From Bacteroidales bacterium (GTDB taxonomy: Bacteria > Bacteroidota > Bacteroidia > Bacteroidales > F082): a DNA stretch of 64,000 nucleotides. The number at the start of each line of letters is the position of its first letter. Position 1 is the stretch's first letter. The stretch is from the NCBI GenBank assembly GCA_017427985.1, contig JAFRRS010000015.1, forward strand, positions 1 to 64,000, in the 5' to 3' direction. The translations under genes and the position numbers were made by a program. The notes under the pieces are model-generated. The model was not told where the DNA came from and ran no database searches. It worked only from the letters and a program-made list of their open reading frames with translations. This document shows positions 27,539 through 52,315 of this stretch, in pieces.

Positions 27539-27590
27539 AAAATAAAAAATGCTAACCGATTGATTTTCTTTCGATTAGCATTTTGCTTCG

Positions 27591-27602
<12 letters not shown>
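27539..27602. repeat. Right 64-bp attachment repeat, overlapping tRNA-Phe 3' end
   Basis: Identical to 21109-21172. Positions 27591-27602 are the last 12 bases of the tRNA gene. Confidence 0.88.
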
Positions 27603-27663
<61 letters not shown>

Positions 27664-36652: not shown

Positions 36653-37933
36653 ATGGACAAGCAAGTTATCAAAACCATCATCGGTGAAAAACAACAGGAA
36701 ATCAAAGAAGTAAGGCTATTACAACGAGGCGAAATCTTTGACAGTAAATCACGATATGTCCTAACAGGAATTCGACGCGCTGGAAAGTCATACACACTAT
36801 ATCAGGATATGCTGAACAAGATGTCGTCAGGCATGGCTCAGGTTGAAGATTTTCTTTATATCCATTTTGAAGATGAGCGTATCGCATCAATAGAAGCGTC
36901 TGAATTGGGATTAATTTTGGACGCGTATTGGGAAATGTATGACCAAAAGCATCCATACATATATCTTGACGAGATTCAGAATATCACCGGATGGGAAAAA
37001 TTTGCCAGAAGATTAGCTGAATCGAAACACCATGTCATGATAACTGGCAGCAATGCCAAAATGTTAAGCAAGGAAATCACAACAACACTTGGCGGCAGTT
37101 ATATTCCTCGCGACATTTATCCTTTTTCATTTGAGGAATATCTGCAATACTATAATGTGAAACTTGACAAAAATTGGGAATATAACCCAGAACAACGTCT
37201 CTCCGTCATCCGTCATTTCAATGAATATTTTTATCATGGAGGTTTTGCTGAAAGTTTCGAACAGCAAAACAAACGCGAATGGCTGACATCATTATATCAG
37301 AAGATTTTGCTTGGCGACATTGTTGAGCGAAACAAAATCAGAAATCCGCGCGTCCTGAGATTATTAGCAAGGAAACTGGCAGAAAGCGTGATGCAACCTA
37401 CAACGCTGAAACGTTTGGAAAACATCATAAAATCAACTGGTGACAGCATCAGCCAAACTGTGTTGAAGGACTATTTAGGATATATGGAAGATGCCTATCT
37501 CATTTTTTCCATACCAAACCTCACATCGCCTCTAACCGAGCAGCAGACCATTATGAAGCGCTATTTTGCCGATAATGGTATTCTGAACAATTTCTTTATC
37601 AATGGTGAGACAAAGTTGCTTGAAAACATTGTGGCGATACAGCTTAACAAAATATACCACAATACAGAGGACGAAACCAGGCTGTTTTATTATAACAAAG
37701 GTGTTGAAGTCGATTTTTGCATTCCGGAAATAGAACTTGCCATACAAGTGTCATACAAAATAGATGACATTGATACCTACGACAGAGAGGTTGGCGGATT
37801 AATCAAGTTTCTCAAAGCCTTCAAGAACTATCATGGGATTATAATCACATGGGACACCGAGCGCCAAATTACAGAGGATGGCATTAGCATTGAGGTTGTG
37901 CCGGTATGGAAATGGCTGCTGAATACAAAATAG
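36653..37933 (+). CDS. AAA ATPase with DUF4143 domain
   Basis: 426 aa. Walker A LTGIRRAGKSYTLYQ (near residue 40), Walker B PYIYLDEIQNI (near 101), sensor MITGSNAKMLSKEI, then a C-terminal DUF4143 nuclease-like part (FYYNKGVEVDFCIPEIELAI). Typical of orphan ATPases scattered in Bacteroidota accessory DNA. Separated by ~245 bp, with a terminator, from the large operon that follows. Confidence 0.9.
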   Translation: MDKQVIKTIIGEKQQEIKEVRLLQRGEIFDSKSRYVLTGIRRAGKSYTLYQDMLNKMSSGMAQVEDFLYIHFEDERIASIEASELGLILDAYWEMYDQKHPYIYLDEIQNITGWEKFARRLAESKHHVMITGSNAKMLSKEITTTLGGSYIPRDIYPFSFEEYLQYYNVKLDKNWEYNPEQRLSVIRHFNEYFYHGGFAESFEQQNKREWLTSLYQKILLGDIVERNKIRNPRVLRLLARKLAESVMQPTTLKRLENIIKSTGDSISQTVLKDYLGYMEDAYLIFSIPNLTSPLTEQQTIMKRYFADNGILNNFFINGETKLLENIVAIQLNKIYHNTEDETRLFYYNKGVEVDFCIPEIELAIQVSYKIDDIDTYDREVGGLIKFLKAFKNYHGIIITWDTERQITEDGISIEVVPVWKWLLNTK

Positions 37934-38000: not shown

Positions 38001-38120
38001 TAATTTTATTACCCACAAAAACCAAAACAAAATTAATTTGCTATTTTTCCTATAATTATTTTCATATTTTCCGATAATTTAAGTAGTAGCGTAAGGCTTT
38101 GATTTTTAATTATTATGGTC

Positions 38121-38129
38121 TAAATTTGC
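38121..38129 (+). promoter_or_regulatory. -7 box TAAATTTGC of the 12-gene operon
   Basis: 49 nt before the first ATG. No other strong -7 box with suitable spacing is seen until the AbiE unit at 52.6 kb. Confidence 0.7.
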
Positions 38130-38177: not shown

Positions 38178-39473
38178 ATGATAAGAAAACCTTTACTTTT
38201 TTTGTGCATACTATGTATAATCTGTTGTACTGATAGAGGAAATGCCACCAGCAGACGTATTCGTTCCAATAGCGGAGAGCCAGAACAGGTCTTGAATGAT
38301 GACACTTTGTTAAAGAACAAAGAAAGAGTTAAACCTATTGTCAATGTTTACATAGAGAATTCAGCTAGCATGGATGGTTATGTCCAAGGTACTGCTGATT
38401 TCAAAACAACAGTTTATAGCTTCTTGCAGTATATTAAAATTCAGAACGTTTGCGACAGTTTGAATCTTTTCTATCTAAATAGCAGAATATTCCCTCAAGG
38501 AACAGTTACAGATGATAACTTGGAAGTACTTAAATATTTTGTTGAAAGATTAGATCCAAATTCGTTTAGACTTAAAGGAACTGTTCCGGGTGAGAACTCA
38601 AGAGGAACATCAGATATTGATGATTTGTTGAGATCGATAATCAGTACTACAGATGAGAATGTTATATCAATTTTAATTACTGATGGTATTTTTTCACCAG
38701 GAAAAGGAAGAGATGCTAATGAATATGTAGCAGCTCAAAAAATTGGTTTGATGGGAACATTCTCTACACTAATGAATAAAATAAAAAATGCTGCCGTTAT
38801 ATTGTATAAAATGGAATCTCAATTTGAAGGTATTTATTATGATAAAACTGACACAAAAATACCGTATAGAGGTTTGAGGCCTTATTATATTTGGGTCGTA
38901 GGAAGTACTGAGAATTTGACAGAATTATTGAATAAAGTACCTAAGAATAAGTTTAACACTGAGCCTGAAGAGATTTTTATGATTTCTGAAGTAACAAATC
39001 AAACAAGATATATTGTTGATGACAATTATGGAGTTCATAAAAAGAATAAAGGTAACAAGTATGTCGTCGAAGGACTTACAAAAGATAAATCAGGAAAAGT
39101 CAGATTTGCTGTAAAGGTTGATTTGTCAGGGGTTTTAGTTGACGATTCTTATTTGCTGAATCCCGATAATTATTTCTATAATTTGAATAATTATTCTCTT
39201 GAAATCCAAAAGCTAGATAATAATCCTAAATATACTCATAAACTAAAGTTTGCATCGAAAGATGGAAAACCTCATCCTGGAGTAATGTCTATAAAGCTAA
39301 AAATGGAAGAGCCAAAATGGGCTGAATCGTCTAATGATAATTATGGAGGAAGCCCTCTGGAGGGTAAGACATACGGATTAAAGTATCAAATAGATGGTTT
39401 ATATGAAGCTTTTACCAAAGACATGAAGGATGTACAGAAATATTATAATGAAATAATAATAAAAATTCAATAA
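38178..39473 (+). CDS. vWA-like lipoprotein (operon gene 1)
   Basis: 431 aa. Lipoprotein signal ending LCIICC (Cys 16/17). From residue 54 a von Willebrand A-like domain: VNVYIENSASMDGYVQG, a MIDAS-like ExSxS motif with Glu60 in place of the usual Asp, Ser62 and Ser64; RGTSDIDDLL supplies the Thr, and SILITDGIFSPG the Asp (169). The rest (~250-431) is beta-rich with no named domain. Likely faces the periplasm and could bind a partner through a metal ion. First gene of the operon with the tubulin-like and actin-like NTPases. Confidence 0.75.
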   Translation: MIRKPLLFLCILCIICCTDRGNATSRRIRSNSGEPEQVLNDDTLLKNKERVKPIVNVYIENSASMDGYVQGTADFKTTVYSFLQYIKIQNVCDSLNLFYLNSRIFPQGTVTDDNLEVLKYFVERLDPNSFRLKGTVPGENSRGTSDIDDLLRSIISTTDENVISILITDGIFSPGKGRDANEYVAAQKIGLMGTFSTLMNKIKNAAVILYKMESQFEGIYYDKTDTKIPYRGLRPYYIWVVGSTENLTELLNKVPKNKFNTEPEEIFMISEVTNQTRYIVDDNYGVHKKNKGNKYVVEGLTKDKSGKVRFAVKVDLSGVLVDDSYLLNPDNYFYNLNNYSLEIQKLDNNPKYTHKLKFASKDGKPHPGVMSIKLKMEEPKWAESSNDNYGGSPLEGKTYGLKYQIDGLYEAFTKDMKDVQKYYNEIIIKIQ

Positions 39474-39497
39474 ATTAATTACTAAATAACTATTACT

Positions 39498-39980
39498 ATG
39501 TTCAACACTATTTATGGATGGTTTTCTTCATTGTATGGAGTTGACCTTGATGATTATCTTATTGGATTTACTCGTATGGTAAATGCTGAGGGAGATCCGG
39601 TATGGGAAGCAAATCATTATGTTATGTTTGGCTTTATAGCCTTAGGTATTGCACTTTTTATTGCCGTAGTTTACTATTATATTATTAATAGTGCACATTT
39701 CAATAAGATCTGGTCTTGGCTCACTATGTTACTTATTACCGGGCTTGTTAATCTTTTTATTGGTGCTGGTGTCATAATATCAAGATTAAATTCAGGTGAA
39801 ATTGACAGATGTCTTGATGAGATTGCACAAGATGGCAATGAATTATATTTGAACAGTGTTAAAACTGCGGACTGTTGGATGTTCGGATTAGCTAATTTAT
39901 TTGTGTCTGTTGCGTTCTTTATTATTATCTCATTAATAATAAAATGGGGTAGTTCAAGCTGTAAACGCTCACCATTCTGA
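39498..39980 (+). CDS. Three-helix inner-membrane protein (operon gene 2)
   Basis: 160 aa. Membrane segments near 41-63 (YVMFGFIALGIALFIAVVYY), 70-95 (WSWLTMLLITGLVNLFIGAG) and 125-148 (CWMFGLANLFVSVAFFIIIS). No family assigned. Short gaps on both sides (24 and 27 bp) put it in the operon. Confidence 0.8.
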   Translation: MFNTIYGWFSSLYGVDLDDYLIGFTRMVNAEGDPVWEANHYVMFGFIALGIALFIAVVYYYIINSAHFNKIWSWLTMLLITGLVNLFIGAGVIISRLNSGEIDRCLDEIAQDGNELYLNSVKTADCWMFGLANLFVSVAFFIIISLIIKWGSSSCKRSPF

Positions 39981-40007
39981 TTTTAAACCAATGAAAATGT
40001 TTTAATT

Positions 40008-41468
40008 ATGGCTAAATTATATGTAATAGGAATCGGAGGAACCGGTTCGAGAGTGCTAAAATCACTCACAATGCTTATGGCAGCAGGAGTACGTGTTGAA
40101 GATGACAAGCAAAGATCATACGAAATTATCCCCGTCATTATCGACCCCGACCATGCAGCAGCTGACTTGACACGAACTGTCAAACTCATGAAAGATTACA
40201 GCAAGGTTTATAATACACTTGATCACAACAGCAGTAATCAAAACAAGTTCTTTGGAACCAAAATAAATATGGAGATTATTCCCGAAGTCAGACTTCCTTT
40301 GGAAAATACTCTTGACGTTGATTTCAAAGATTATATTGGCTTGCCTTACATGAGAGACATCGACAATTTACCAAACGCTAATTTTGCACTTGTATCAACA
40401 TTGTTCTCTCAGAAGAATTTGGATGCAAAAATGGAGGTCGGTTTCAAGGGTAACCCAAATATTGGAAGTGTTGTACTCAACCAATTCGCTCTAACAAAAC
40501 AATGGACAGATTTAGTAGCATCATTTGGACAAGACGATAGGATTTTCGTTATTTCTTCAATTTTCGGAGGAACCGGCGCAAGTGGATTTCCTCTTTTGTT
40601 AAAGAAAATCCGTTCTGTTGACGAAAAACTTCCCGGTTGCAAAAACATTAAGGATTCTATTATAGGTGCAATAACAGTACTACCTTATTTTGATGTAAAG
40701 CCTGCCGAAGATAGCGAAATTGATTCTTCAACGTTCATGTCAAAAACAAAAGCTGCGCTTAGTTATTATGACCGTAATATGACAGAAGCCAACATGATTT
40801 ATTACATTGGTGACAAACAAAAAAAGCAATATGAAAATTCGGAGGGAGGAGCAACCCAACAAAACAGGGCTCATTTCATCGAATTAGCATCAGCACTAGC
40901 CATTGTTGATTTTGCGCGTCAATCAGACCTTGAAACAACAGAAGGAAAGCCTTCAAAGGTGCAATATAAAGAATTTGGTATAAGAGATGAAGTGGACGAG
41001 ATTTTGTTTGGCAATTTGGATAATTATACAAATCTTAACATAAAGAAACCATTGGTAATGTTTACCATGTTCTGTAAATATATGAAAGAACAGTTGGCCG
41101 ATTCTGTAGGCAAACAACCTTGGTCAAAAGATTTGAAATTTGATACAAATTTTGTCAGAAGTCATTTTTATGGAGCTTTATTGAAAGACATTGAAACGGC
41201 ATATATCCAGTGGCTTGAAGAAATGGCAGATAACAGCAGGGCTTTTACTCCTTTTGATTTGCGCGAGAAGAAAAATGATGTTTTTGCATTAATTAAAGGT
41301 GTAGTACCAGCAAAAGTATTCAGCTTTAGTTCAAATTATGCGTTGTTTGACGATTACCTTAATAAAAAACAAGGCAAAATAAACCACGGTTCATCAAAAG
41401 AGAACATGTTCGTCGAACTGTTCTATACAGCAATAAATGATTTGGTAAAAGATAAATTTAGATTATAA
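40008..41468 (+). CDS. Tubulin-like GTPase (operon gene 3)
   Basis: 486 aa. The first strand and loop LYVIGIGGTGSRVLKSLTML (residues 4-23) form the tubulin/FtsZ-type N-terminal nucleotide loop, IIPVIIDPDHAAAD an acidic strand end, and SSIFGGTGASGFPLLLKKI (183-201) the glycine-rich tubulin signature in the form GGTGxSG. This matches the bacterial tubulin-like family (Tubulin_2 type), not FtsZ. Four bp before the actin/Hsp70-fold gene. Whether it forms filaments is unknown. Confidence 0.85.
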   Translation: MAKLYVIGIGGTGSRVLKSLTMLMAAGVRVEDDKQRSYEIIPVIIDPDHAAADLTRTVKLMKDYSKVYNTLDHNSSNQNKFFGTKINMEIIPEVRLPLENTLDVDFKDYIGLPYMRDIDNLPNANFALVSTLFSQKNLDAKMEVGFKGNPNIGSVVLNQFALTKQWTDLVASFGQDDRIFVISSIFGGTGASGFPLLLKKIRSVDEKLPGCKNIKDSIIGAITVLPYFDVKPAEDSEIDSSTFMSKTKAALSYYDRNMTEANMIYYIGDKQKKQYENSEGGATQQNRAHFIELASALAIVDFARQSDLETTEGKPSKVQYKEFGIRDEVDEILFGNLDNYTNLNIKKPLVMFTMFCKYMKEQLADSVGKQPWSKDLKFDTNFVRSHFYGALLKDIETAYIQWLEEMADNSRAFTPFDLREKKNDVFALIKGVVPAKVFSFSSNYALFDDYLNKKQGKINHGSSKENMFVELFYTAINDLVKDKFRL

Positions 41469-41472
41469 TATT

Positions 41473-44400
41473 ATGAGTTATATATTCAGATTACATGATG
41501 CTGGTCTCAACACAATAACAGATTGGGGCAGTTCTCAGAAATACGGATCGGCTGTTATAGAACAGATGAAAGATCCAAACGGTGAAACGGCAAGAAAGGA
41601 AATCACATCAATACCATCGCCTTTCGCAAGAATAGATTTGGTTAAAACAGCATTCAAAAAAGTGGCCGAGCAAAATGTCGAGGGCAAAACCATTAACCAT
41701 AAAATGGTATCTGATGCGCTTGATGTGGCTCAGATATTTTTTGAATATGAAAAATTCAAGGATAAAATCGAAATAATAGTTTGGGAGAAAAATAATTGTA
41801 TTAGCGAGTTGTTAAATTCACCATTTGATTCCCATAAACAATTAGGAGATGTCTTTGATACATATATCAAACAAGATGGTGCGGTATATAATTTTGACAA
41901 GGCTGATAGAATATATATCCTTAATTACAAAGAAGGTCCCGGCGAAATCAATATATTAGGCGCCACATCTCCAGCCACACTGTTCTTCACCCCTGCCAAT
42001 GATTTGACTTATTGCAAATTTGGCAGTGGCACAGATGTGTTTTTCGACGACGATTACAGGCCATTATACAGAAGAGACGAGGATTTCCAGTTATTCTTAT
42101 ATTCTTTAAGAAAATCAACAACAGGCTTCGCGACACTATTTCCAGAAGTGGAAAAATACATGGTTGAAAGCATGAAATTGATGAGCCCGAGCACAAAAAG
42201 CAAAATCAATGCCATGACAGCATCAGATTACGTTAACAACTATAACTCTATCGCTGTCAACAACAATGCCGGAAACGCCATTTTCATATTGAACGACATG
42301 GAATACAGGACAAGAAGACCAAACACCGCAAAAATTGGTGATGTCAGTGGATTTGTGATAATGTCAGACACTACAATAGATGGTAAAAAACCTTTGGTTC
42401 TTCCTGTTGACACATACACTTTAAACACTATTTATGCACAAGAAGGTTGTCCTTGGAATAGTAACACAAAAGTTCCTTATTATAATAGCACACCTGCTAA
42501 AGAACGTGTATTGCCGGACGATGGCACCAAATATCCGTATCTTACAATAAGCGACTTTTTGACTGACACTATAGTAAGAATGCCTTACGAAATTGACAAT
42601 GTCAATTATTATGACGGCAATATCGACAAACCTGAAGGTTATAGTTATCTTTTACCTTTAACAGACATATTTTTTAAGTTTTTCACTGTTGATGATTTGA
42701 AATCCAGAACGATGAGTGATGGCAAGAAAATGCTTGAATTGTTAAACAATGTCGCTGGTGTAACTGTTGTCCTTCGTATTCCTATTAGAAGAAACTATAT
42801 CGAGTATCGCAGAACATATTTCTTGAGAGGCGTTACTGTTGATGAAACCAAAACAACAAACAATGGTGTTATATCAGACAATAAAATTGGTCTTGGTATC
42901 ATTCCTTTTGTCAAATTCCCCGAGAATGTCGATAAGCATTATCGTGTAGCATTTTACGACAAGACTAAAGCCAACAATGTTAGACTTGTCTTCATGGACG
43001 ACGATATTGTTTCCTCAAAAGATGTTGTTAGTTGCAAAAAAGACACTGAATTGAATTTGTGCAGCCATGAAACCTATGTGGTTGAGGATAATTTCGATCG
43101 TATTAAAGTCGAAGTCAGTGATAGTGTCAAAGGCTATATAATTCCACGATTCAAACAGGCAGAGAGCAAACAGGGCGTGTACACGTTTGCTGTTGACTAC
43201 GGAACAACAAATACTCATATTGAGTATTGTACTGATGACAGCAAAACACCAAAGATGTTTGAAATCAAGGAAGATGAGGTTCAGTTGCGCAAATTGCATA
43301 AAAGATACACCGACCCTGATATCAACGCTGGATTCATTGAAGATTTTATTCCGGACAGCATCGGCAACAAAGATTTTTCATTCCCAATGCGAACAGTATT
43401 CGCTCCAAATGTGTCAATAAACCTTGACACTAATCCTGTTGCTTTGGCTGATGGACGTATTCCTTTCTTATATGAGAAGAGGTTTATTCCGAAATGGAAT
43501 AAAGTAAAAACCGAAATGAAATGGGGCGGTGTGCCAGATGGTTTGCTCAAGCTTCATATCGAAACGATTTTCATTTTGTTGAGGAATAAGGTCGTATTAA
43601 ACAACGGGAGCCTTCCTGACACAAAGATTGTTTGGTTCTATCCTGCCAGTATGACAGAAGATAAAGTCATAAAATTCAAAGGATTCTGGAATGAAGCATA
43701 TAATAAATATTTTGGACCAAACACAGCAAACGTCATCAGTATCTCTGAATCAGTTGCGCCTTATTGTCATTTCATCAAAACTGAAAATGCGAAGCAAGAG
43801 ACTGTTACTATAGATGTTGGTGGAGGTACGACAGACGTACTTGTAGTTCAGGATGCCGAGCCAAGGATGCTTATGTCATTCCGATATGCATCAAATGCGA
43901 TTTTTGGCGACAGTTATAACAGCAACCCAAGACAAAACGGATTCGTCAATACATATCTGAATTCATTTGAAAATATAATGAATACGAACAATCTGCTTGA
44001 ACTTACCCAGTCATTGAATCAAATCAAAGACTCAAACAAGTCATCAGATATCTTAACATTCCTCTTCTCATTACAAGGAGAAAAGGTAAAGAACAATGAC
44101 GAGCTTAATTTCTTGAAAAAATTACAAAAGGATGACAAAATGAGATATGTGTTCATCATATTCTATTCATCAATAATTTATTTCATTGCAAAGACGATGA
44201 AAGCTAAAGGTCTTAGGAAACCAATAACTGTAGCTTTCAGCGGTAATGGAGCTCGTACTTTAAGTATTCTTTCTATTGACACAACCATGATATCACGTTA
44301 CATAAAACTTATCTTTGATACAGTTTATGGAAACAATGACGGAACTATAGAAGTCAAGATGGAAAGCAATCCAAAGATAGCCACATGTAAAGGCGGCATA

Positions 44401-44844
44401 CAATGTGTTTATGGCAAGGATACCGAGAAATTGAAGACATATGATGATGTTGACGACATCAAAGAAATCGTTGTCGGTGACAATCTTGAGAACAACATTG
44501 ACCGTCAGTTAAGATATGGTGACATATCTGAAGAATTACGAAAGAATGTTGTTGACACCGTAGAAAACTTCTTTACGTTCCTTTTCAAAATGCATAGCGA
44601 CAACAAGGATTTCTTAACTGCCAAGCTCGGTGCCGACGGAGCCATTTACTCTAAAGTACAAGAATTCTGCCTTGGTTCTGAAGGCAAACAAATTCTTGAA
44701 GATTCAATGTCGAAAGGATTCAAGAAGAAACTTGAAGAGGTTAACAATGACAAGGGCAAGCAGTTGGAAGACACATTGTTCTTCTATCCTCTGGTAGGAT
44801 TGCTTCACGACCTTGCGTTAAAGATTAGTAACAAGATGCAATAG
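41473..44844 (+). CDS. Giant actin/Hsp70-fold ATPase (operon gene 4)
   Basis: 1123 aa. The ASKHA-fold nucleotide motifs are in the C-terminal half: phosphate 1 YTFAVDYGTTNTHIEYC (about 570-586), phosphate 2 TVTIDVGGGTTDVLVVQ (about 777-793), adenosine ITVAFSGNGARTLSIL (about 918-933). The N-terminal ~560 residues have no recognised domain (segment SPATLFFTPANDLTYCKFGS is notable). Size and layout recall the SrfB-type large ATPases, without clear identity. Probably cytoplasmic, paired with the tubulin-like protein. Confidence 0.82.
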   Translation: MSYIFRLHDAGLNTITDWGSSQKYGSAVIEQMKDPNGETARKEITSIPSPFARIDLVKTAFKKVAEQNVEGKTINHKMVSDALDVAQIFFEYEKFKDKIEIIVWEKNNCISELLNSPFDSHKQLGDVFDTYIKQDGAVYNFDKADRIYILNYKEGPGEINILGATSPATLFFTPANDLTYCKFGSGTDVFFDDDYRPLYRRDEDFQLFLYSLRKSTTGFATLFPEVEKYMVESMKLMSPSTKSKINAMTASDYVNNYNSIAVNNNAGNAIFILNDMEYRTRRPNTAKIGDVSGFVIMSDTTIDGKKPLVLPVDTYTLNTIYAQEGCPWNSNTKVPYYNSTPAKERVLPDDGTKYPYLTISDFLTDTIVRMPYEIDNVNYYDGNIDKPEGYSYLLPLTDIFFKFFTVDDLKSRTMSDGKKMLELLNNVAGVTVVLRIPIRRNYIEYRRTYFLRGVTVDETKTTNNGVISDNKIGLGIIPFVKFPENVDKHYRVAFYDKTKANNVRLVFMDDDIVSSKDVVSCKKDTELNLCSHETYVVEDNFDRIKVEVSDSVKGYIIPRFKQAESKQGVYTFAVDYGTTNTHIEYCTDDSKTPKMFEIKEDEVQLRKLHKRYTDPDINAGFIEDFIPDSIGNKDFSFPMRTVFAPNVSINLDTNPVALADGRIPFLYEKRFIPKWNKVKTEMKWGGVPDGLLKLHIETIFILLRNKVVLNNGSLPDTKIVWFYPASMTEDKVIKFKGFWNEAYNKYFGPNTANVISISESVAPYCHFIKTENAKQETVTIDVGGGTTDVLVVQDAEPRMLMSFRYASNAIFGDSYNSNPRQNGFVNTYLNSFENIMNTNNLLELTQSLNQIKDSNKSSDILTFLFSLQGEKVKNNDELNFLKKLQKDDKMRYVFIIFYSSIIYFIAKTMKAKGLRKPITVAFSGNGARTLSILSIDTTMISRYIKLIFDTVYGNNDGTIEVKMESNPKIATCKGGIQCVYGKDTEKLKTYDDVDDIKEIVVGDNLENNIDRQLRYGDISEELRKNVVDTVENFFTFLFKMHSDNKDFLTAKLGADGAIYSKVQEFCLGSEGKQILEDSMSKGFKKKLEEVNNDKGKQLEDTLFFYPLVGLLHDLALKISNKMQ

Positions 44845-44852
44845 TTATTTTT

Positions 44853-46475
44853 ATGAAAAGATTTTTTTTGATAATATCAACAATGATATTGGTTTTAGCT
44901 TCCGCTTTAACAGCGGAAGCTAAACTTGCATTGTCAGAAAAAGAAATTGTTTTCTGTGACAATACAACAGCTGATGATTCTGTTGTTAAAGCGATAGGAT
45001 TTACTTTAGAACCACTTTCAATTGACGAAATGAAAGCCGGCGATTCTAAAGAGATTTCTATTAAAGTCACACCAGAAAATGCTATAATGCCAGATATAAA
45101 TCCTCTTTATGATGATTCTAATACTCTAATTAAAGTTGAAAAGACTTCTACTGGATTCAAAATTACTGCTTTACAAGAGTCAAGTAATCGTCAAGTGCAA
45201 ATAACTTTTAAAGCGGAAGGATTAGAGGATCAGACTTTGACTATTAAAAAAATTGTACAACAGAATACTCCACCCGCCACAATACAAGAGAATAATTATG
45301 TCGTTTGGATTAATGAAGTTCCCAATAATAAAGATAAATGGAAACAATCTAAAGAAGCTAATAATACCATCAATAAGATGACAATTGGTGGTACGGGTGT
45401 AGATTTAAAGATTCTTAATAATGATACTCCAATAACAGCAGAAGTCGTTAGCGAACAACCCCAAAAAGTTAGTATTAAATCCAAAGAAGGAAATATATAT
45501 CATTTAAAAGCAGAACAGGCGGGGGGCAATATTAAAGTTACCATTAAAATTGATGAACAGACAAAATATACGATAACAATTAAACAAGTTGTAGAAACAA
45601 CAGAACAAACAGGCAAATCGCCAACTGCAAAGGAAACATCCAATCAACAAAGGCAATCTGATGATTCACAAAATAAGATAACCCAATTACATCAACGGAT
45701 TACATCATTAAAGTCTGATAGTACAATATGCCATAAAGCTTTGGCAGAATTACAATTGAAGTATGATGGTTTAGAAAAAACATATGAATATGAAATTGAG
45801 AACCTTAAAAAAAGAATAAAATACGCCATAATATTCAGTATTATCGGCACTCTAATAATCGCTTTTGTTGTATTGATCTTGTTGTACAAAAAACTTAATA
45901 AGACATTCTCTGATGATTTAAAAGATGCCGAAAAAGAAACCTATGGACTCAGAAGGCAATTGAATGACAAACATTCTGATAAGAGCATCAAAGAAAAACG
46001 TTTAAAGGAACTTGAAGGTGAGATAGACAAGTTCAAAAAAGAAAATGATTCTTTGAAGATGGAAATTATGCATCTTCAAAAAAACTCTTCCAAAGTACAA
46101 TCCACAACAAATCAGGAAATTGTTGAAAACCAACCTGTAATTGACAATAATCCTCCAACACCAGAACCACCACGAATTGTGAGTATGTATTCCGACTGTA
46201 TTATTGACGGATATTTCAACAGGGTTTCCGAGAGACCTGATGAAGATACTGTGTTTGAGCTGGTCTTGGATGATGAGAATATGAACATGGCTTCGGTTGA
46301 TGTTTATCAAGGGGCGCATCGCCGTATCATAGCCAATCCAGCTTTTATTGATGGCTGTGAGAAACAGATTGTCGGCAATTCAAATGTTCGTGTTGAAAGA
46401 AAAGGCATTGCTGAAAAAGATGCTGATAATGGGAAATGGAGATTGATAAAAGCTCCAATGATTGAGATTAGATAA
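44853..46475 (+). CDS. Single-pass coiled-coil protein with shared C-terminal domain, A (operon gene 5)
   Basis: 540 aa. Signal-like N-terminus (LALTAEA type cleavage near 23), a periplasmic region with two Ig-like-looking halves, a Gln/Ser/Thr-rich stretch and coiled coil (~270-325), a membrane helix near 326-348 (IIFSIIGTLIIAFVVLILLY), a second coiled coil (~355-415), then a domain at 445-540 (MYSDCIIDGYFNRVSERPDE, AHRRIIANPAFIDGCEKQI). The same final domain occurs in the next protein. It could connect periplasmic and cytoplasmic parts of the machine. Confidence 0.8.
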   Translation: MKRFFLIISTMILVLASALTAEAKLALSEKEIVFCDNTTADDSVVKAIGFTLEPLSIDEMKAGDSKEISIKVTPENAIMPDINPLYDDSNTLIKVEKTSTGFKITALQESSNRQVQITFKAEGLEDQTLTIKKIVQQNTPPATIQENNYVVWINEVPNNKDKWKQSKEANNTINKMTIGGTGVDLKILNNDTPITAEVVSEQPQKVSIKSKEGNIYHLKAEQAGGNIKVTIKIDEQTKYTITIKQVVETTEQTGKSPTAKETSNQQRQSDDSQNKITQLHQRITSLKSDSTICHKALAELQLKYDGLEKTYEYEIENLKKRIKYAIIFSIIGTLIIAFVVLILLYKKLNKTFSDDLKDAEKETYGLRRQLNDKHSDKSIKEKRLKELEGEIDKFKKENDSLKMEIMHLQKNSSKVQSTTNQEIVENQPVIDNNPPTPEPPRIVSMYSDCIIDGYFNRVSERPDEDTVFELVLDDENMNMASVDVYQGAHRRIIANPAFIDGCEKQIVGNSNVRVERKGIAEKDADNGKWRLIKAPMIEIR

Positions 46476-46478
46476 TCT

Positions 46479-47519
46479 ATGTTAAAAAGGATTTTGTTTA
46501 TTATCGTAATGAGCGTTCTGTTTGTTGCCTGTAAAGGCGACAAACAGAACGGCCTAAATACTATTGAAAAAATTAAAATTGAAACTTCACAAAACAAGTT
46601 CGATGTTAATGCAATTTATGAAATCAAATTGCGCGTATTAAAACCAAAGGGCGCTAAACTTGACGGGCAACAATTAAAATGGGAATGTTGCGACACAACA
46701 ACAAGTAAGATCATAGAATTATCCAATGATAGTAGCAACCATTGTTTCATAAAATTTCTAAAAAAAGGGAGAGTCAAAATAAAAGCCAAAGTTGGTAATG
46801 CGGAAGATACTATTACATTGAAAACCAGATTCAACAATATTGGTTGGTGGCTTGCTTTTGCTTTCATTGTTACATTTGGCAGTTATATCTTGGGATATTT
46901 TAAAATCATCAAATTACATATAAATGACAAATCCAAGAAACAGCCACAAAGCAATCCCGATAGTAAAGAGTTAAAAAAACTCACGATAAAATATAATCAA
47001 CTGCTTGAAGAAAAAGACAATTACAAAAACAAACACAAAAATCTTGTAAACAAATATAATCAATTAGCTAAAGATTATAATCAGCTTTGGGACAACTATA
47101 AGGAGTTGGTAAATAAATATAAAAGTCTTAAAAAACAGTCAACCACCAAAGCGACAGCCCCTAAAACTAGTGATATTAAAAAGGTTGAGATTAAAGTTGT
47201 TGATCAAGTAACTGAAAAACCGACTAATAATAATTCTGTTATGTATGCAGATTGTATTGTCGATAGTTTTTTCAACAATGTTACCGAAAAACCTGATGAA
47301 GACACCGTGTTTGAACTTCACACAAGTAGTAATACTGCAGATTTCATCATCTATTCTGGCGCAAAAAGAAGAATCATTGCAAATCCAGCATATCTTGATG
47401 GATGTGAAAAACAAATCATTGGCGACAGCGAGGTTATTGTTGAAGAAAAAGGCACAGCACAAATCCAAATGGATGGTAAATGGAAAATTATTAACAATTT
47501 AAAAGTGATTATTAAGTAG
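46479..47519 (+). CDS. Single-pass coiled-coil protein with shared C-terminal domain, B (operon gene 6)
   Basis: 346 aa, a shorter relative of gene 5. Signal peptide with a possible lipobox (LFVAC, Cys 18), one small Ig-like region, a membrane helix near 121-144 (WWLAFAFIVTFGSYILGYF), a Lys/Asn/Tyr-rich coiled coil (LVNKYNQLAKDYNQLWDNYK), then the shared domain at 255-346 (MYADCIVDSFFNNVTEKPDE, AKRRIIANPAYLDGCEKQI). Starts 3 bp after gene 5. Confidence 0.8.
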   Translation: MLKRILFIIVMSVLFVACKGDKQNGLNTIEKIKIETSQNKFDVNAIYEIKLRVLKPKGAKLDGQQLKWECCDTTTSKIIELSNDSSNHCFIKFLKKGRVKIKAKVGNAEDTITLKTRFNNIGWWLAFAFIVTFGSYILGYFKIIKLHINDKSKKQPQSNPDSKELKKLTIKYNQLLEEKDNYKNKHKNLVNKYNQLAKDYNQLWDNYKELVNKYKSLKKQSTTKATAPKTSDIKKVEIKVVDQVTEKPTNNNSVMYADCIVDSFFNNVTEKPDEDTVFELHTSSNTADFIIYSGAKRRIIANPAYLDGCEKQIIGDSEVIVEEKGTAQIQMDGKWKIINNLKVIIK

Positions 47520-47526
47520 CGTTATT

Positions 47527-49137
47527 ATGAGTACACACTTTTTCATTATTTTATTGATTATTGGAGTAATTGTAATTATACAATTAAAGGTTTTTTCGAG
47601 CACAATACGTAAAATCAATGATTATTATTCTATATTTCCTAGTAAACCTGTTTACACTCTGAAAAAAGAATCCTTGATTAAAGCTGTTAAAAAAGCTAAT
47701 GACGACGAATTGAAAAAAATGCTTGAATCAGGAGGATTTGATATATATAACTATTTGATTGTCAGGCTCAACAATCAAGGAGCGGAAGAGTTTGTGTTGA
47801 AAAGAGACATTGCAATTCGTGATTTGGTGCATAGCATATCAAAAAATGTTGAAGGTATTAATCCAAATCACAATAATCCAACATTCCAAAATATTATCAA
47901 TTCGATTAATACCTATATGGAGAACAACAAATCTGTCAACGATTATCATTTGATGAAAGATATTGTTGATAGAAATTGTGATTCAAAGGAAGATGAAATA
48001 AACACACAGACTCCAATTCCTTTATATCTCGGTCTTGTCGGCACAATGGCAGGAATCCTTGTCGGCATTCTTTTCTTATGGTTAAGCGGAGGATTAGCTG
48101 ATTTGCTTAATTCTGGCAATGGCTCCGGTAATGGAGCGAACGGTATTGAAGCTTTACTTGGAGGTGTGGCATTGGCTATGATTTCCAGCATTCTGGGAAT
48201 CGTTTTGACAACATTAGCTTCGAACAGCTTTAAATCAGCAAAAACAGCATTTGATCGGGATAAAAATCTTTTCTATAGTTGGATACAAGAAAACCTATTA
48301 CCAAAATTATCCGACAATGTCGTTGATTCCATTAGAGAAATGACTCATAATCTTTCAGAATTCAATGAAACGTTTGCTAATAATGTGAAAGGATTGGATT
48401 ATGCTCTGTCAAAAGTGAATGAGTCATACAAGCAACAAACTGAAATAATGACTGCGATACAAAAAATCGCCGACAAAGACTTGTCTGTCAAAAATTTACA
48501 GTTGTTTAACGCTCTCACAAACAGTGCTCAAGAGATTGAAAATTTAGGAGGGTATCTGAAGTACAGCAATGAATATCTTGCAAATGTAAAAGCTTTAAAC
48601 GAGAATCTAAGCCTTCAAGAAAAACGCACTCAAATAATGGAAGATGTAGGAGTGTTTTTCAAAACAGAGGCTGATCAAATAGAAGAACGACGCGGTTTGA
48701 TGAGTAGAGCCGTGGGCACAGTTGATGATTATCTTAAGCAAGCATTGGATAAATTGAAAGATAATATCGACAAAGAATTTGCGGAATTACAAAATACATC
48801 ATTAAAGAATCAGGATGTTATTAGGCAGAAAGCTGAAGAAATTGAGGTCATTGTTAGAGAACTTAATAATCTCGGTGATTTAAAAAAGAATTTCTCAGTG
48901 TTTTCTAATGAACTCCATGAACAAAACTCTAAAATAACACAGTTGTCAAATGCCATAAAAGACCTTGCTGAAGTGAAAAAACAGTTGGCTGACAAAGAAA
49001 AACAAACGGAAGAAGACAAACCAAAACATATTGGTAGAAAAATATTAATAGGTTGCATTTCTACTTTAATGGCAGCATTAATCGTAGCTAACTGGTCTGT
49101 TATTTATGATTTCATTACATATTGTTTTCGATTTTAA
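47527..49137 (+). CDS. MotA/TolQ/ExbB-type channel protein with long coiled coil (operon gene 7)
   Basis: 536 aa. N-terminal helix 4-22, a ~140-residue soluble insert, then the proton-channel core: PLYLGLVGTMAGILVGILFL (165-184) and GGVALAMISSILGIVLTTLA (212-231), the two signature helices of MotA/ExbB proteins. A long coiled coil (~255-505) follows, and a last membrane helix near 508-530. The long cytoplasmic tail recalls ZorA of the Zorya system; the extra C-terminal helix is unusual. Partner is the next gene. Confidence 0.85.
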   Translation: MSTHFFIILLIIGVIVIIQLKVFSSTIRKINDYYSIFPSKPVYTLKKESLIKAVKKANDDELKKMLESGGFDIYNYLIVRLNNQGAEEFVLKRDIAIRDLVHSISKNVEGINPNHNNPTFQNIINSINTYMENNKSVNDYHLMKDIVDRNCDSKEDEINTQTPIPLYLGLVGTMAGILVGILFLWLSGGLADLLNSGNGSGNGANGIEALLGGVALAMISSILGIVLTTLASNSFKSAKTAFDRDKNLFYSWIQENLLPKLSDNVVDSIREMTHNLSEFNETFANNVKGLDYALSKVNESYKQQTEIMTAIQKIADKDLSVKNLQLFNALTNSAQEIENLGGYLKYSNEYLANVKALNENLSLQEKRTQIMEDVGVFFKTEADQIEERRGLMSRAVGTVDDYLKQALDKLKDNIDKEFAELQNTSLKNQDVIRQKAEEIEVIVRELNNLGDLKKNFSVFSNELHEQNSKITQLSNAIKDLAEVKKQLADKEKQTEEDKPKHIGRKILIGCISTLMAALIVANWSVIYDFITYCFRF

Positions 49138-49150
49138 TTGATGAAACGGC

Positions 49151-49801
49151 ATGGGTAAAAACAAAAAAGAATCATTTTTCTGGACTAGTTATTCCGACTT
49201 AATGACATCTCTGTTTTTTGTCATGCTTGTTTTGTTCGTCATTGTTATAGTACTTCTGCATAACAAAATGATAGACATTGAAGGGGAACGCAGAGCAACG
49301 CAATCTCAACTTGATAAAATTACAGAGATTCAAAGTGCAACAGAAAACATTGATAATAACTATTTTCAATATGATAATGTTTTTAAAAGACATACCTTAA
49401 ATGATATCAATGTTTCTTTTCGAAATGGAAGTTCTGATATTTTAGATTTGTCCGACATTGATAGAGTAAAACTATTAAAGGCTGGTAGATCAATAGTCGC
49501 TTTTATGTCAAAAGCAGAAAAAGAACTTCCAGAAGCGAGATATATGCTTATATTAGAAGGGCAATCATCCAAAGATGATTATGTTTACAATTACGAATTA
49601 AGTTATCAGAGAGCTTTGTCTTTGTATAAATATTGGCTGTATCATACAATTCCCATTGACAAATTAAAAAACTGCGAAACTATTATATCAGGCAGTGGTC
49701 AATCTAGTAGATTTCGTGTTGAACCAGATGTTCCGGGAAACAATGCAAATCAAAGATTTGTAATACATATTATTCCTAAACCAGGAGTTATTGATAAATA
49801 G
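49151..49801 (+). CDS. MotB/ZorB-like protein with OmpA-type domain (operon gene 8)
   Basis: 216 aa. One membrane helix begins with WTSYSDLMTSLFFVMLVLF; Asp16 is at the position of the proton-binding aspartate of MotB/ZorB. The C-terminal part (~120-210) is OmpA-like (YMLILEGQSSKDD, LSYQRALSLYKYWL, ANQRFVIHIIP), which usually binds peptidoglycan. Together with gene 7 it should form an ion-driven stator or motor unit. Confidence 0.87.
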   Translation: MGKNKKESFFWTSYSDLMTSLFFVMLVLFVIVIVLLHNKMIDIEGERRATQSQLDKITEIQSATENIDNNYFQYDNVFKRHTLNDINVSFRNGSSDILDLSDIDRVKLLKAGRSIVAFMSKAEKELPEARYMLILEGQSSKDDYVYNYELSYQRALSLYKYWLYHTIPIDKLKNCETIISGSGQSSRFRVEPDVPGNNANQRFVIHIIPKPGVIDK

Positions 49802-49808
49802 TTTTGTT

Positions 49809-50768
49809 ATGAAAAAATTCATAGTTTTATTATTAATATCCGTATTGATGACTGGTTGTACGGGAAGGTCAAAATCATCTCAAAGAGCACGCTCTAGGAG
49901 AACTGCTACTGAAAAAACACATTCGAAAAAAAGAAATACAAATAATAAGCGGAGCCACAATCAGTCTAACAACAATAATACTGTCATTCCTAGAACACCG
50001 AAGCAAAAGATCCCAACACCACCACAAATCATACACGACACAATAATTATGGTTGTACCAATGCAGCCAAACAACAAATTAGTTAAGCACAATAATAGTG
50101 ATATAATTATCCCTTCAAGTAAAACTATGAAACCTGTTGTTCATAAAGATAATTTGCCATATCCTCCTAAAATAGAGTTTCAAAAGCCATCATATCTTTA
50201 CACAAGGGAACAATACATTGAAAACTTTAATTTGAATGAATCCATGAAAGATTTAATCTTTGCATGTGATTATGATAATCCAACCGTAAGGAATAATGCC
50301 GTAGCATTAGTTTCAATATCTCCTGGTCAATTTAATCTTGGGCAAATTTGCGATATTTTTGATTTCTGTTATCAGAATTGGAGTTATGTTAACGATCCTT
50401 TGTCATCTGAATATTTTGCCAAATCCTCTGAAACAATACTAAACGGATTAAATGGAGATTGCGATGATTTTGCAATATTAATGTGCTCCATGATTATATC
50501 AATAGGAGGAGAAGCAAGAATTAGTTTTGCATATAATGACAATACTGGTCATGCTTTTACAGAAGTTAATATTGGTACTACAGATCGCAAGGCTGTCGAA
50601 AACTATCTGAAAGCTCGTTATGGATACAATGAATTATGGCACAAAAACGATGGAGAAAACTGGTGGCTTAATCTTGATTGGCAAGGAGCATATCCTGGGG
50701 CAAAATATTGGGATTACAATAGAGGTATGTGCTTTAACATAATAAGAAATACATATAATACTTTTTAA
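49809..50768 (+). CDS. Lipoprotein with transglutaminase-like cysteine-protease domain (operon gene 9)
   Basis: 319 aa from the ATG at 49809. Lipobox LMTGC (Cys 17), a low-complexity Asn/Ser/Lys/Pro linker to ~residue 120, then a helical part and a transglutaminase-like core with an apparent catalytic triad: Cys218 in LNGDCDDFAILMCSM, His248 in TGHAFTEVN and Asp290 in WWLNLDW. Such enzymes cleave or crosslink peptides; the peptidoglycan peptide or an envelope protein is a plausible substrate. Confidence 0.82.
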   Translation: MKKFIVLLLISVLMTGCTGRSKSSQRARSRRTATEKTHSKKRNTNNKRSHNQSNNNNTVIPRTPKQKIPTPPQIIHDTIIMVVPMQPNNKLVKHNNSDIIIPSSKTMKPVVHKDNLPYPPKIEFQKPSYLYTREQYIENFNLNESMKDLIFACDYDNPTVRNNAVALVSISPGQFNLGQICDIFDFCYQNWSYVNDPLSSEYFAKSSETILNGLNGDCDDFAILMCSMIISIGGEARISFAYNDNTGHAFTEVNIGTTDRKAVENYLKARYGYNELWHKNDGENWWLNLDWQGAYPGAKYWDYNRGMCFNIIRNTYNTF

Positions 50769-50786
50769 ACTAAAATGCTTACTGTT

Positions 50787-51098
50787 ATGAAAAAACTATT
50801 GTTATCATCATTAATGTTTGTTTTGGTCGCGATTATGATAGGGTGCTCATCATCCATGGACAGGGATGCAACAAAAATGGCAAAACGTGTTATTGAACTA
50901 GAACAAGTACAAAAACGTATGGGAGACCGTTCCAACTTATATGGCAAACCAATGTCAAAAAAGGAGTATGAGCAGTATTCTCAAGAATACATTGAATACG
51001 CCAACAAAATGATAGAAAAGTACAGCGAAACAAGGGAACAAAGACAAGAGTTCTTCGAACTCGTTGACAAGAAGGTAAAAGAAATGAAAAACAAATAA
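50787..51098 (+). CDS. Small helical lipoprotein (operon gene 10)
   Basis: 103 aa. Lipobox IMIGC (Cys 20); the mature part is charged and helical (AKRVIELEQVQKRMGDRSNL, EYEQYSQEYIEYANKMIEKY). No family assigned. Confidence 0.8.
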   Translation: MKKLLLSSLMFVLVAIMIGCSSSMDRDATKMAKRVIELEQVQKRMGDRSNLYGKPMSKKEYEQYSQEYIEYANKMIEKYSETREQRQEFFELVDKKVKEMKNK

Positions 51099-51107
51099 AG
51101 TAACAAT

Positions 51108-51830
51108 ATGAAACAAACTATTATTATTTTATTCATTTTGACAATACTCTCATGTTCTAACAATAGTCACAGACATGATGGTAATAAATATGATAGAAAA
51201 CAGGATGTGACTTCCGACCAAATACATCAAACATCTGGTGATAATAATGCTAAGGGGAAAGACCCTCAAATTGGTTCGGGTATTATTCCAAATGAAACCA
51301 TCATCGCCAACGATTTAATAGGTCGTAAAATAACTGAATGTCGGGATAATGGCTACTTCGACAATGATTGGGTCTGGACAATTGAAAATGGTGAGATCTT
51401 AGATTTTAAAATATTAAACCAAGTAGTTGATACGGATTATTGCACATTCTATGTTGAAATGATTTTAAAAGCTGTTACACGACCCATAAAATACAAAGCG
51501 ACAGTACAAGTTGATTACACAAAGACTAACAATAGATGGGTGATAAGTATGGTCCAAAGTAAAGGTGTGGATGTTGTCAAAACAGGAAGATACGATAATT
51601 GCATAAGTACAAAAATAGGCGATGATGGTTGGGGCGGAGTCGATTGCCTAAAGATTAAAAACAATACTGATGTACCATTATTTGTAGGTGGTTTGTTCAG
51701 GACAAGTTACTCCGATGCATGGCGTAAATTTTCGGCTGTTGTTAATGGATTAGAAGTGATTGGAATTGGTGGAACATTCGGCGGAGGAAGCGTCGTTGAT
51801 TATGAAATTCATTGGGTTGAACAATATTGA
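51108..51830 (+). CDS. Lipoprotein of unknown function (operon gene 11)
   Basis: 240 aa. Lipobox TILSC (Cys 16), a His/Asp/Asn-rich linker, then a beta-rich region with LIGRKITECRDNGYFDNDWV and a glycine-rich end (VIGIGGTFGGGSVVDYEIHW). No family assigned. Confidence 0.78.
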   Translation: MKQTIIILFILTILSCSNNSHRHDGNKYDRKQDVTSDQIHQTSGDNNAKGKDPQIGSGIIPNETIIANDLIGRKITECRDNGYFDNDWVWTIENGEILDFKILNQVVDTDYCTFYVEMILKAVTRPIKYKATVQVDYTKTNNRWVISMVQSKGVDVVKTGRYDNCISTKIGDDGWGGVDCLKIKNNTDVPLFVGGLFRTSYSDAWRKFSAVVNGLEVIGIGGTFGGGSVVDYEIHWVEQY

Positions 51831-51844
51831 ATAAATTAAAGAAT

Positions 51845-52315
51845 ATGCCTAACACAAACCTTATCGTTGCTGGAATCATTTTCCTAACTCTGCTCGTTTT
51901 CTACATCATTGCCAAAGTGAAGTCAAACCGAGGCGATTTGGTCCTTACTGCCAACGGATGGGATATGGCTATGCTAATTGCCTGCCCTATAGCCATATTC
52001 ATTGCATGGTGCTGGGGCTTTGACCATCCGCTGAATAACGCTCAGATTGTGTGCGTAGTTATCGCAAGTCTTTGTTTCGTCGGAACATCAATCATGTCGA
52101 TAGTTCATAACGAAGGTGAATTTATGCATATTCTTATATCAGTTTTAGCAAAACTGTTTATCGTTTGGCTGACACTTATGATAATTTTGCTATTGATTGC
52201 AGTGTTTTTATTCTCTGTTATAATTTCATGTATTGGAGAACATAACGATGGCGATGAATATATTCTTTTGAAATATGACCGCGCGTTACATGCTTATGTA
52301 GGGTATCGGATTTAA
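51845..52315 (+). CDS. Four-helix membrane protein (operon gene 12)
   Basis: 156 aa from the ATG at 51845. Hydrophobic segments near 5-23, 39-58, 66-87 and 100-130. Its better codon use (more G/C) than genes 1-11 may mean that it is not part of the same acquisition; it ends the same-strand run. Confidence 0.65.
   Translation: MPNTNLIVAGIIFLTLLVFYIIAKVKSNRGDLVLTANGWDMAMLIACPIAIFIAWCWGFDHPLNNAQIVCVVIASLCFVGTSIMSIVHNEGEFMHILISVLAKLFIVWLTLMIILLLIAVFLFSVIISCIGEHNDGDEYILLKYDRALHAYVGYRI

Follow-up and report, generated by a model that had tools for sequence, protein, structure and literature searches.

The Zorya defence systems rely on ZorAB, an ion-driven 5:2 motor which depends on its tail, on ion flow and on binding to peptidoglycan and which recruits effectors (PMC11890865). 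A 2025 paper describes vWA proteins that act as force transducers in pairs with TolQ-like motors (PMC12204202). Tubulin-like proteins occur in other predicted systems. FtsZl1, together with vWA, GTPase and OmpA proteins, has been interpreted as a membrane-remodelling system (Makarova and Koonin 2010, PMC2875224), while Kaur et al. (2020, PMC7159879) report GTPase-centric conflict systems with tubulin plus vWA and with HSP70 and, separately, operons of trypsin and NucA, in part with S8/subtilisin (their System 3, mostly from alphaproteobacteria), likewise predicted to be conflict systems. SNIPE is a membrane-anchored nuclease which cuts phage DNA at injection (PMC13190303). Here we describe a block of 12 genes on a stretch of 64,000 nucleotides from a Bacteroidales bacterium of the GTDB family F082 (assembly GCA_017427985.1, contig JAFRRS010000015.1, positions 1 to 64,000 of the forward strand; "the window" in the following). 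Its conserved core encodes a putative tubulin-like GTPase, a giant protein of predicted actin/Hsp70-type fold, a vWA lipoprotein and a MotA/MotB-like motor and is followed by a variable slot for exported hydrolases, many of which share an anchor motif. The gene set is mobile and probably represents an uncharacterised antiviral defence.

With Zorya types I to III the block appears to share a MotA/MotB-like motor with a peptidoglycan-binding domain and a long cytoplasmic tail, coupled to variable effectors (PMC11890865), but it adds tubulin, actin-fold and vWA proteins as well as exported effectors. The TolQ-paired systems also combine a vWA protein with a 5:2-type motor; there, however, the vWA protein is anchored by a transmembrane (TM) helix at or in the motor (PMC12204202), whereas in our block it is encoded as a lipoprotein of its own, usually along with a MotB-like gene. 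The FtsZl1 systems resemble the block in pairing an FtsZ/tubulin-like protein with a vWA partner, in the OmpA-type and membrane proteins of their predicted operons and in a patchy distribution with transfer (PMC2875224). A Tubulin_2/FtsZ-like GTPase domain and a vWA partner gene (68 of 68 loci, see below) are found here, too. In contrast, the P-loop GTPase partner which is frequent, albeit not universal, with FtsZl1 has no counterpart of its family among the 12 window proteins (Pfam, at the E limits used), and the window tubulin-like protein comprises 486 amino acids (aa) compared with 1051 aa of the published FtsZl1 type member. In the accessible text of that paper MotA, MotB, Hsp70 and transglutaminase do not occur, actin appears in other contexts only and exchangeable hydrolases are not described (PMC2875224). 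The GAP1-N2 systems of Kaur et al. combine tubulin with an extracellular vWA protein near the membrane, with HSP70 in related neighbourhoods and with variable components (PMC7159879). They are, however, defined by DO-GTPase plus GAP1, and neither MotA nor Zorya occurs in the accessible text. A comparison made with Pfam families detected no GTPase of this kind among the 12 window proteins. System 3 recalls the pairing of trypsin and nuclease in the cargo of 6 of our loci and the subtilase of locus L104, whereas its description, as far as accessible, comprises no motor, tubulin or actin, and the trypsin-NucA pair is absent from the window by Pfam. SNIPE differs in being a single DUF4041/GIY-YIG protein with a cytoplasmic nuclease and no motor (PMC13190303); no such Pfam match is seen in the 12 window proteins.

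An earlier reading of this stretch from the sequence (the original prediction) was aware of no described system containing the full set. This stands for the full combination, since we found no described system which joins tubulin, actin-fold, vWA and motor proteins, and no paper presenting tubulin, MotA/MotB and vWA as one system in searches which left most subscription papers outside. Part of the set, in contrast, was already reported in 2010 (FtsZ-like tubulin with vWA and OmpA; PMC2875224) and in 2020 (tubulin plus vWA conflict systems; PMC7159879).

Conservation of the core genes

An alignment of the tubulin-like protein, scanned against one genome per species (84,980 species), retrieved 284 relatives, while a first contig scan with a single protein as query had found none. 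Core-gene counts refer to the best 80 of the 284, i.e. those nearest to the window, and were made by means of profiles grown from the window proteins. Seven repeats or fragments (L019, L021, L022, L068, L069, L075 and L117) were excluded from the effector and motif counts and also from the neighbourhood listings, where only L117 and L022 were partly kept; L068, L069 and L075 were retained among the 80 loci of the core-order count.

The first eight genes of the block form a conserved machine. The vWA-lipoprotein gene and the small membrane gene are each present in 68 of 68 loci with upstream sequence and the actin-fold gene in 78 of 78, followed by the coil-type gene (60 of 62, by a profile which may also catch other coiled coils), the MotA-like gene (57 of 62) and the MotB-like gene (51 of 62). 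The complete core order is kept in 47 of 58 full-length loci, with median spacings of 3 to 12 bp. The co-occurrence which the original prediction had proposed to check is thereby supported, as is the recurrence of tubulin, actin-like, MotA and MotB genes as a block. Within a set of 100 genomes (the host and 99 relatives) the tubulin protein is found in 15, the host among them, and blastp in several of these revealed the order vWA, membrane protein, tubulin, actin, coil, MotA, MotB as well as a second subtype with the order tubulin, actin, MotA, MotB. The proposal of a 12-gene system holds for the eight-gene core only. A fixed set of 12 was rejected because genes 9 to 12 are exchangeable cargo with relatives in merely 2 to 4 loci each, window included. 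Judged by record title, hosts of the 80 loci are nearly all Bacteroidota, supplemented by metagenome-assembled genomes of two Leptospiraceae, of a Sulfuricurvum and of organisms labelled Acetatifactor and Oscillibacter, which are possibly mis-binned.

Several variants of the arrangement were observed. Six of the 11 full-length loci departing from the full order belong to genomes which by name appear to be those of insect-gut symbionts, and zinc-ribbon and other membrane proteins follow there. In L038, L039, L043, L044, L048, L051 and L061 MotB (in some of them also MotA) is undetected, and zinc-ribbon proteins and, in four of these loci, a membrane family (cluster c12) are found instead. The second subtype (L023 to L028, L116 and L117) comprises vWA, a different small membrane protein (c6), tubulin, actin-fold, MotA, MotB, a DUF4357-type protein (c7) and a TM-anchored Endonuclease_NS; L116 and L117 stem from a viral collection, yet their visible genes look bacterial. 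A third arrangement is seen in L031, L032 and L033, where a more distant tubulin gene precedes a protein of about 1150 to 1280 aa which by eye resembles the start of the actin-fold protein (missed by the profile) and where a motor is undetected. The cyanobacterial plasmid operons L119 and L120 consist of a small protein, a tubulin-like protein, a protein of about 1100 aa and further hypothetical genes. DnaJ-like proteins adjoin the block in L081, L089 and L100 (two Pfam matches to DnaJ among the 85 downstream proteins) and are possibly co-chaperones of the Hsp70-fold protein. In L083, L102 and L113 the actin-fold gene is split or truncated, reflecting decaying copies of the block or sequence errors.

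Cargo genes downstream of motB

The slot after motB accommodates exchangeable exported hydrolases: trypsin-like, retropepsin-like or transglutaminase-fold proteases, nucleases of the Endonuclease_NS or staphylococcal type, or a protease followed by a nuclease. Chains of genes spaced by at most 100 bp after MotB were collected from the 59 loci with MotB, and among the resulting 85 proteins Pfam (E ≤ 1e-3) detected Trypsin_2 (20), gag-asp_proteas (12), Endonuclease_NS (11), SNase (8), DUF4357 (5), Exo_endo_phos (1) and Peptidase_S8 (1). In an upstream control covering 142 of 201 proteins the four main hydrolase families were not among the 25 commonest of 244 families, families matched once being partly hidden. 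Counted by sequence clusters in 77 loci, hydrolases account for 57 of 255 downstream versus 2 of 441 upstream non-core genes. At least one hydrolase is present in 50 of 94 loci, some of which end at contig or stretch ends. Here, trypsin (12), Endonuclease_NS (11), retropepsin (10) and SNase (2) occur as the single class, while two classes are combined as trypsin plus Endonuclease_NS (6), retropepsin plus SNase (5), trypsin plus SNase (3) and trypsin plus retropepsin (1). Where protease and nuclease share a locus the protease invariably comes first (14 of 14). Of the loci with MotB, 49 extend for 800 bp or more past this gene, and 38 of these contain one of five hydrolase classes (31 a protease, 21 a nuclease, 14 both). 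Catalytic motifs are largely kept, namely the retropepsin DTGA in 16 of 16 proteins, the trypsin Ser in 21 and His in 19 of 22, the Endonuclease_NS motif in 15 of 17 and both SNase motifs in 8 of 10. The transglutaminase-fold cargo has GDCDDFA, GHA and LNLDW motifs in all three known members (window, L043 and L079). Most effectors carry a lipobox or a TM anchor.

A common motif, C-x(0-7)-[KRNSQH]SG[KRHNQPT], follows the lipidated Cys in 26 of 65 effectors compared with 2 of 835 other non-core genes. It is present in trypsin (11 of 22), retropepsin (9 of 16) and SNase effectors (6 of 10), i.e. on three unrelated folds, which suggests a docking signal kept during enzyme swaps. Examples are CAHKSGHK, CSKSGQK and CNSKSGNRK; the cargo of the window itself has the variant CTGRSKSSQ, which is outside the 26 counted. 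Among controls the motif is found in 0 of 72 other lipobox genes and in 4 of 85 vWA genes.

How often the cargo has changed was estimated on a quick tree of 80 actin-fold proteins, which produced long-branch warnings and from which L030 and actin open reading frames below 900 aa were omitted. Among 35 loci labelled by protease class we count 7 changes (12.0 on average and no fewer than 7 in shuffles), among 25 labelled by nuclease class 4 changes (average 7.6, minimum 4) and among 48 labelled by cargo combination 20 changes (average 30.9, minimum 24). Compared with the shuffles, these numbers indicate that cargo is partly inherited and repeatedly replaced. The closest relative of the window locus, L037 (64% identity; among the best 80 of 284), possesses a trypsin and an Endonuclease_NS cut by the stretch end, whereas the window has a transglutaminase. 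Likewise, the proteases of the sisters L055 (retropepsin) and L071 (trypsin, with an Endonuclease_NS cut by the contig end) differ. The sister trio L062, L063 and L057 was dropped as evidence of swapping, as the SNase found in L063 is a piece of 92 aa that lacks DGDT and, in L057, the retropepsin resides in a TPR protein without lipobox.

Genomic context and mobility

The block lies within an island at a variable insertion site and moves horizontally. The island is located between ppiD and degT, which are close neighbours in relatives. In 16 of 60 genomes, own included, the flanking genes ppiD and that of a TonB receptor are found on one contig within 25 kb; their distance is 1.9 to 3.6 kb in ten genomes, 4 to 6 kb in G046 and G032, 14 to 23 kb in G026, G005 and G041 and 21.5 kb in the window. 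The larger inserts of relatives contain FHA/WXG100-like/kinase/phosphatase, PDC-S01, AbiE-like and HipA-like genes (AbiE and HipA mainly by eye; the kinase models match kinases broadly). Of 392 genomes sampled from the phylum, 9 contain the actin-fold protein, and of 179 genera 7 do (own included in both cases), which is a lower bound because this first look scored at most 2 candidates per genome. Tubulin is found in 10 of 59 same-genus genomes, many of them incomplete. Genes resembling tyrosine integrases occur in the flanks of 9 loci and directly adjoin the vWA gene in 6 (one member Pfam-confirmed).

In the window, the genes bordering the AT-rich island are PDC-S01, AbiEi, AbiEii and the remnant of a PDC-S27 gene, the PDC families being candidates only. 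All four are matched by PADLOC, in agreement with the AbiE and ATPase genes noted originally. A location in defence islands, which the original prediction would have counted as support, is seen in the window, where candidate defence genes adjoin, but not in general: the upstream flanks of other loci contain few known defence genes, and the idea of a general defence-island enrichment was discarded. Three further candidate explanations were discarded. As a phage gene cluster the block is discounted by weak PHROGs matches (nine proteins; best E 1.2e-7, in a coiled coil) and by the lack of an actin-fold match in 50,697 phage records. As a plasmid system it is discounted by a single actin-fold match among 72,556 plasmid records, on a replicon of 1.77 Mb belonging to Prevotella sp. 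oral taxon 299, tubulin matching 6. Integration linked to a tRNA was rejected, a single tRNA having been detected in the window (27590-27663).

We would like to mention two observations at the insertion site. The PpiD/SurA-like protein of the window (33196-35289) retains a central segment of about 105 residues (343-447), while many same-genus relatives are without it and match 1-342 and 448-697 only. The insert of G026 at the same site (L121, L122; about 20 kb) encodes, mostly by eye, WXG100-like proteins, a 1078-aa FHA/FtsK-like protein, FHA proteins, Ser/Thr kinases and a PP2C-like phosphatase beside a PDC-S01-type ATPase and may be another uncharacterised system; by eye, the start of the window PDC-S01 ATPase is near-identical to that in this insert.

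Family assignment of the core proteins

The host genome comprises 2.49 Mb at 98.9% completeness, the window being part of its contig 12. All 12 genes of the block (Table 1) are on the plus strand with all 11 spacings below 30 bp and form a single tight operon, preceded by a promoter-like box of the consensus which we take to be that of Bacteroidota; this agrees with what had been predicted. The predicted difference in base composition is likewise evident, G+C amounting to 34.4% in the block versus 45.2% in the left and 47.5% in the right flank.

Table 1. The 12-gene block and neighbouring features in the window (positions counted from its first nucleotide).
Feature	Position	Strand	Evidence
AAA_14/DUF4143 ATPase, PADLOC candidate family PDC-S01 (neighbour; left part of AT-rich island)	36653..37933	+	Pfam E 2.2e-31; PADLOC PDC-S01 E 1.1e-88
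Putative Bacteroidota-type promoter TTTG-N19-TAAATTTG	38098..38128	+	6 matches in window vs 2.1 expected
Core 1: vWA lipoprotein, MIDAS-like E-x-S-x-S ... D	38178..39473	+	alignment, AlphaFold model, vWA matches
Core 2: small membrane protein, about 3 hydrophobic segments	39498..39980	+	hydropathy
Core 3: predicted tubulin/FtsZ-like GTPase, Tubulin_2-like	40008..41468	+	FGGTGA loop, family profile
Core 4: 1123-aa predicted actin/Hsp70-fold ATPase; ATPase domain ~567-991	41473..44844	+	
Core 5: single-pass coiled-coil protein, N-terminal part predicted exported	44853..46475	+	partly by eye
Core 6: coiled-coil protein, signal/lipobox-like start, one TM segment	46479..47519	+	
Core 7: candidate MotA/ZorA-like subunit, C-terminal coil region ~230 residues	47527..49137	+	weakest family call of core
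Core 8: MotB/ZorB-like subunit, TM helix and OmpA-like domain	49151..49801	+	
Cargo: transglutaminase-fold (thiol-protease-like) lipoprotein	49809..50768	+	PF01841 E 7.5e-8
Cargo: 107-aa lipoprotein	50775..51098	+	lipobox; found in 3 loci, window included
Cargo: 240-aa lipoprotein	51108..51830	+	relative = part of subtilase-like 651-aa protein of L104
Cargo: four-TM protein	51827..52315	+	relative in L104
AbiEi antitoxin (neighbour)	52665..53480	+	Pfam E 3.2e-21; PADLOC E 2.4e-83
AbiEii toxin (neighbour)	53477..54280	+	Pfam E 4e-31; PADLOC E 2.9e-115
PDC-S27 candidate-defence protein, C-terminal half (remnant; neighbour)	54530..55219	+	PADLOC E 8.1e-62, profile 246-473 of 474

The protein-by-protein search proposed originally supports the vWA, MreB/Hsp70, transglutaminase-fold and MotB assignments, whereas the MotA call is weak. 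In the vWA lipoprotein E60, S62, S64 and D169 are invariant (47-member alignment) and the lipobox Cys17 is kept in at least 90%; the AlphaFold model (predicted local distance difference test score of 88) has vWA proteins as fold matches, so that a vWA fold with a metal-ion-dependent adhesion site (MIDAS) is supported. Pfam matched no named family to the small membrane protein of core 2. For core 3 the FGGTGA loop, invariant in 32 members, and the Tubulin_2/FtsZ-like domain, matched by 16 members in a batch with 18 tubulin-type proteins (E ≤ 1e-3, best 2.2e-10), indicate a tubulin fold as judged from sequence, the window protein alone scoring 23.2 bits, below the cut-off of 27. An MreB/Hsp70 (actin-type) fold is supported as a prediction for the ATPase of core 4. 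The C-terminal domain of core 5 resembles that of core 6. Relatives of core 7 match MotA_ExbB in 3 and ZorA in 1 (E 8.1e-8) of 14 MotA-type members; against ZorA3 the window protein reaches a weak E of 0.18 (PADLOC), while an 8-member profile matches ZorA in the PDB at E 1.8e-4 over the coiled coil. Core 8 matches PADLOC ZorB1 at E 6.1e-14, NCBIfam ZorB1 at only 31 bits (cut-off 400) and, in the PDB, the MotB-related entry 8vvn (E 1.5e-11) and chain 8qyd_F of a ZorAB entry (E 3.7e-6). ZorB models match 10 members in a batch with 11 MotB-type proteins, and Asp16 in the TM helix is near-invariant. The ordinary MotA/ExbB genes of the genome were ruled out as identity of the motor genes, both PF01618 matches being on other contigs.

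Discussion

We attach somewhat more than even credence to the view that the block encodes a horizontally moving, envelope-spanning and ion-driven Zorya-like machine which licenses periplasmic hydrolases against incoming phage. As regards the defence role, the trigger, the order of events, the target and the part taken by the tubulin and actin-fold nucleoside triphosphatases (NTPases), we infer the following. By homology to ZorAB, the MotA-like and MotB-like proteins would build an ion-driven motor in the inner membrane, its OmpA-like domain gripping the peptidoglycan and its MotA tail extending into the cytoplasm. On the cytoplasmic side the tubulin-like GTPase and the giant actin/Hsp70-fold ATPase may act as a nucleoside triphosphate-dependent switch or scaffold, while the vWA lipoprotein and the single-pass coiled-coil proteins may span or link across the envelope. 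The machine would sense that the cell wall has been breached by a phage on entry or by another element, upon which the exported hydrolases (protease, nuclease or both) would be licensed and attack the injection apparatus and the DNA at the entry site. A more tentative proposition, which we rate slightly below even, is that of an immunity class in which a rotary ion motor and tubulin- and actin-type NTPases deploy plug-in periplasmic protease and nuclease lipoproteins, many on a common anchor, so that both the DNA and the injection machinery of a phage would be destroyed while still outside the cytoplasm.

Several observations weigh against a licensing machine of this kind. We know of no phage phenotype or phage test for the block. 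In 11 of the 58 full-length loci, those deviating from the full order, MotB is undetected in all and MotA in 5, so that some lineages may do without the motor or use a substitute. The MotA homology of core 7 is itself weak at sequence level, and a 27-member profile searched against the PDB (E ≤ 0.01) found only coiled-coil proteins and unrelated transporters but no ZorA. Many loci are protease-only or nuclease-only, the 12 proteins of the window include no nuclease recognisable by Pfam, and by script 11 of the 49 loci mentioned above have none of the five hydrolase classes, although one of these, L069, is a repeat of L020 (with Endonuclease_NS) and another, L104, contains a subtilase. The periplasmic location of the effectors is a prediction from lipoboxes and TM anchors. 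The anchor motif is present in 0 of 17 Endonuclease_NS effectors; moreover, it was defined after the sequences in related loci had been seen and the loci share ancestry, so that p-values are indicative only. Finally, in the upstream flanks of other loci (142 proteins) no PADLOC family has more than 2 matches (E ≤ 1e-10).

The same machine could alternatively act by abortive infection, its hydrolases killing or arresting the infected host instead of cutting the invader. This is unlikely but carries appreciable weight, as the neighbouring AbiE genes form a toxin-antitoxin pair, many loci have only a protease and Zorya, in the accessible text, is reported to damage host DNA and to act population-wide (PMC11890865). 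On the other hand, the lipoboxes and TM anchors of most effectors would place the nucleases on the wrong side for host DNA, and no gene cluster beyond core and hydrolases recurs in most loci, meaning that a conserved immunity gene is not seen. Quite improbable is a membrane-remodelling or vesicle machine in which tubulin, actin-fold and motor proteins shape the envelope and hydrolases clear periplasmic debris. HtrA-like proteases are indeed common in periplasmic quality control. Makarova and Koonin read the combination of tubulin-like, vWA and OmpA proteins in this manner for FtsZl1 (PMC2875224, accessible part). The patchy distribution, the variable insertion site, the integrases beside the block in 6 loci and the swaps of unrelated proteases and nucleases are, however, unlike housekeeping.

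A slim chance remains for inter-bacterial competition or nutrient scavenging, where the motor would power the export or display of hydrolases acting on neighbours or environmental polymers. The hydrolases do bear export signals and many hosts are gut or symbiont Bacteroidota, but no secretion component is present in the core or the Pfam-scanned cargo. The surface-export signal of lipoproteins consists of acidic residues after the Cys, whereas here basic residues follow. We give the slimmest chance to the block being a Zorya type whose motor and accessories act in the cytoplasm, as ZorAB does with ZorC/D or ZorE, the hydrolases being incidental. The ZorB matches of the MotB-type members and the long MotA coil tail with its ZorA match by the 8-member profile point in this direction and, in line with the comparison to Zorya suggested originally, suggest kinship of the motor. 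No such kinship is seen for the accessories: of the ten window proteins covered by the PADLOC scan (all but genes 10 and 12), none matched ZorC, ZorD, ZorE, ZorF or ZorG at E ≤ 1. The low NCBIfam ZorB1 score and the failure of the 27-member MotA profile to retrieve ZorA also argue against a Zorya type, and the tubulin, actin-fold and vWA genes are conserved at least as well as the motor.

There is a substantial chance that the block deserves a class of its own. If the envelope-spanning machine which we favour serves defence, it would show how immunity makes use of a membrane motor together with two NTPases of cytoskeleton type and would extend Zorya-like action to the periplasm. Tubulin_2-type proteins, whose 2010 report came without a tested function, would acquire one that is open to experiment. 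Because the cargo slot is modular, the hypothesis lends itself to a direct test.

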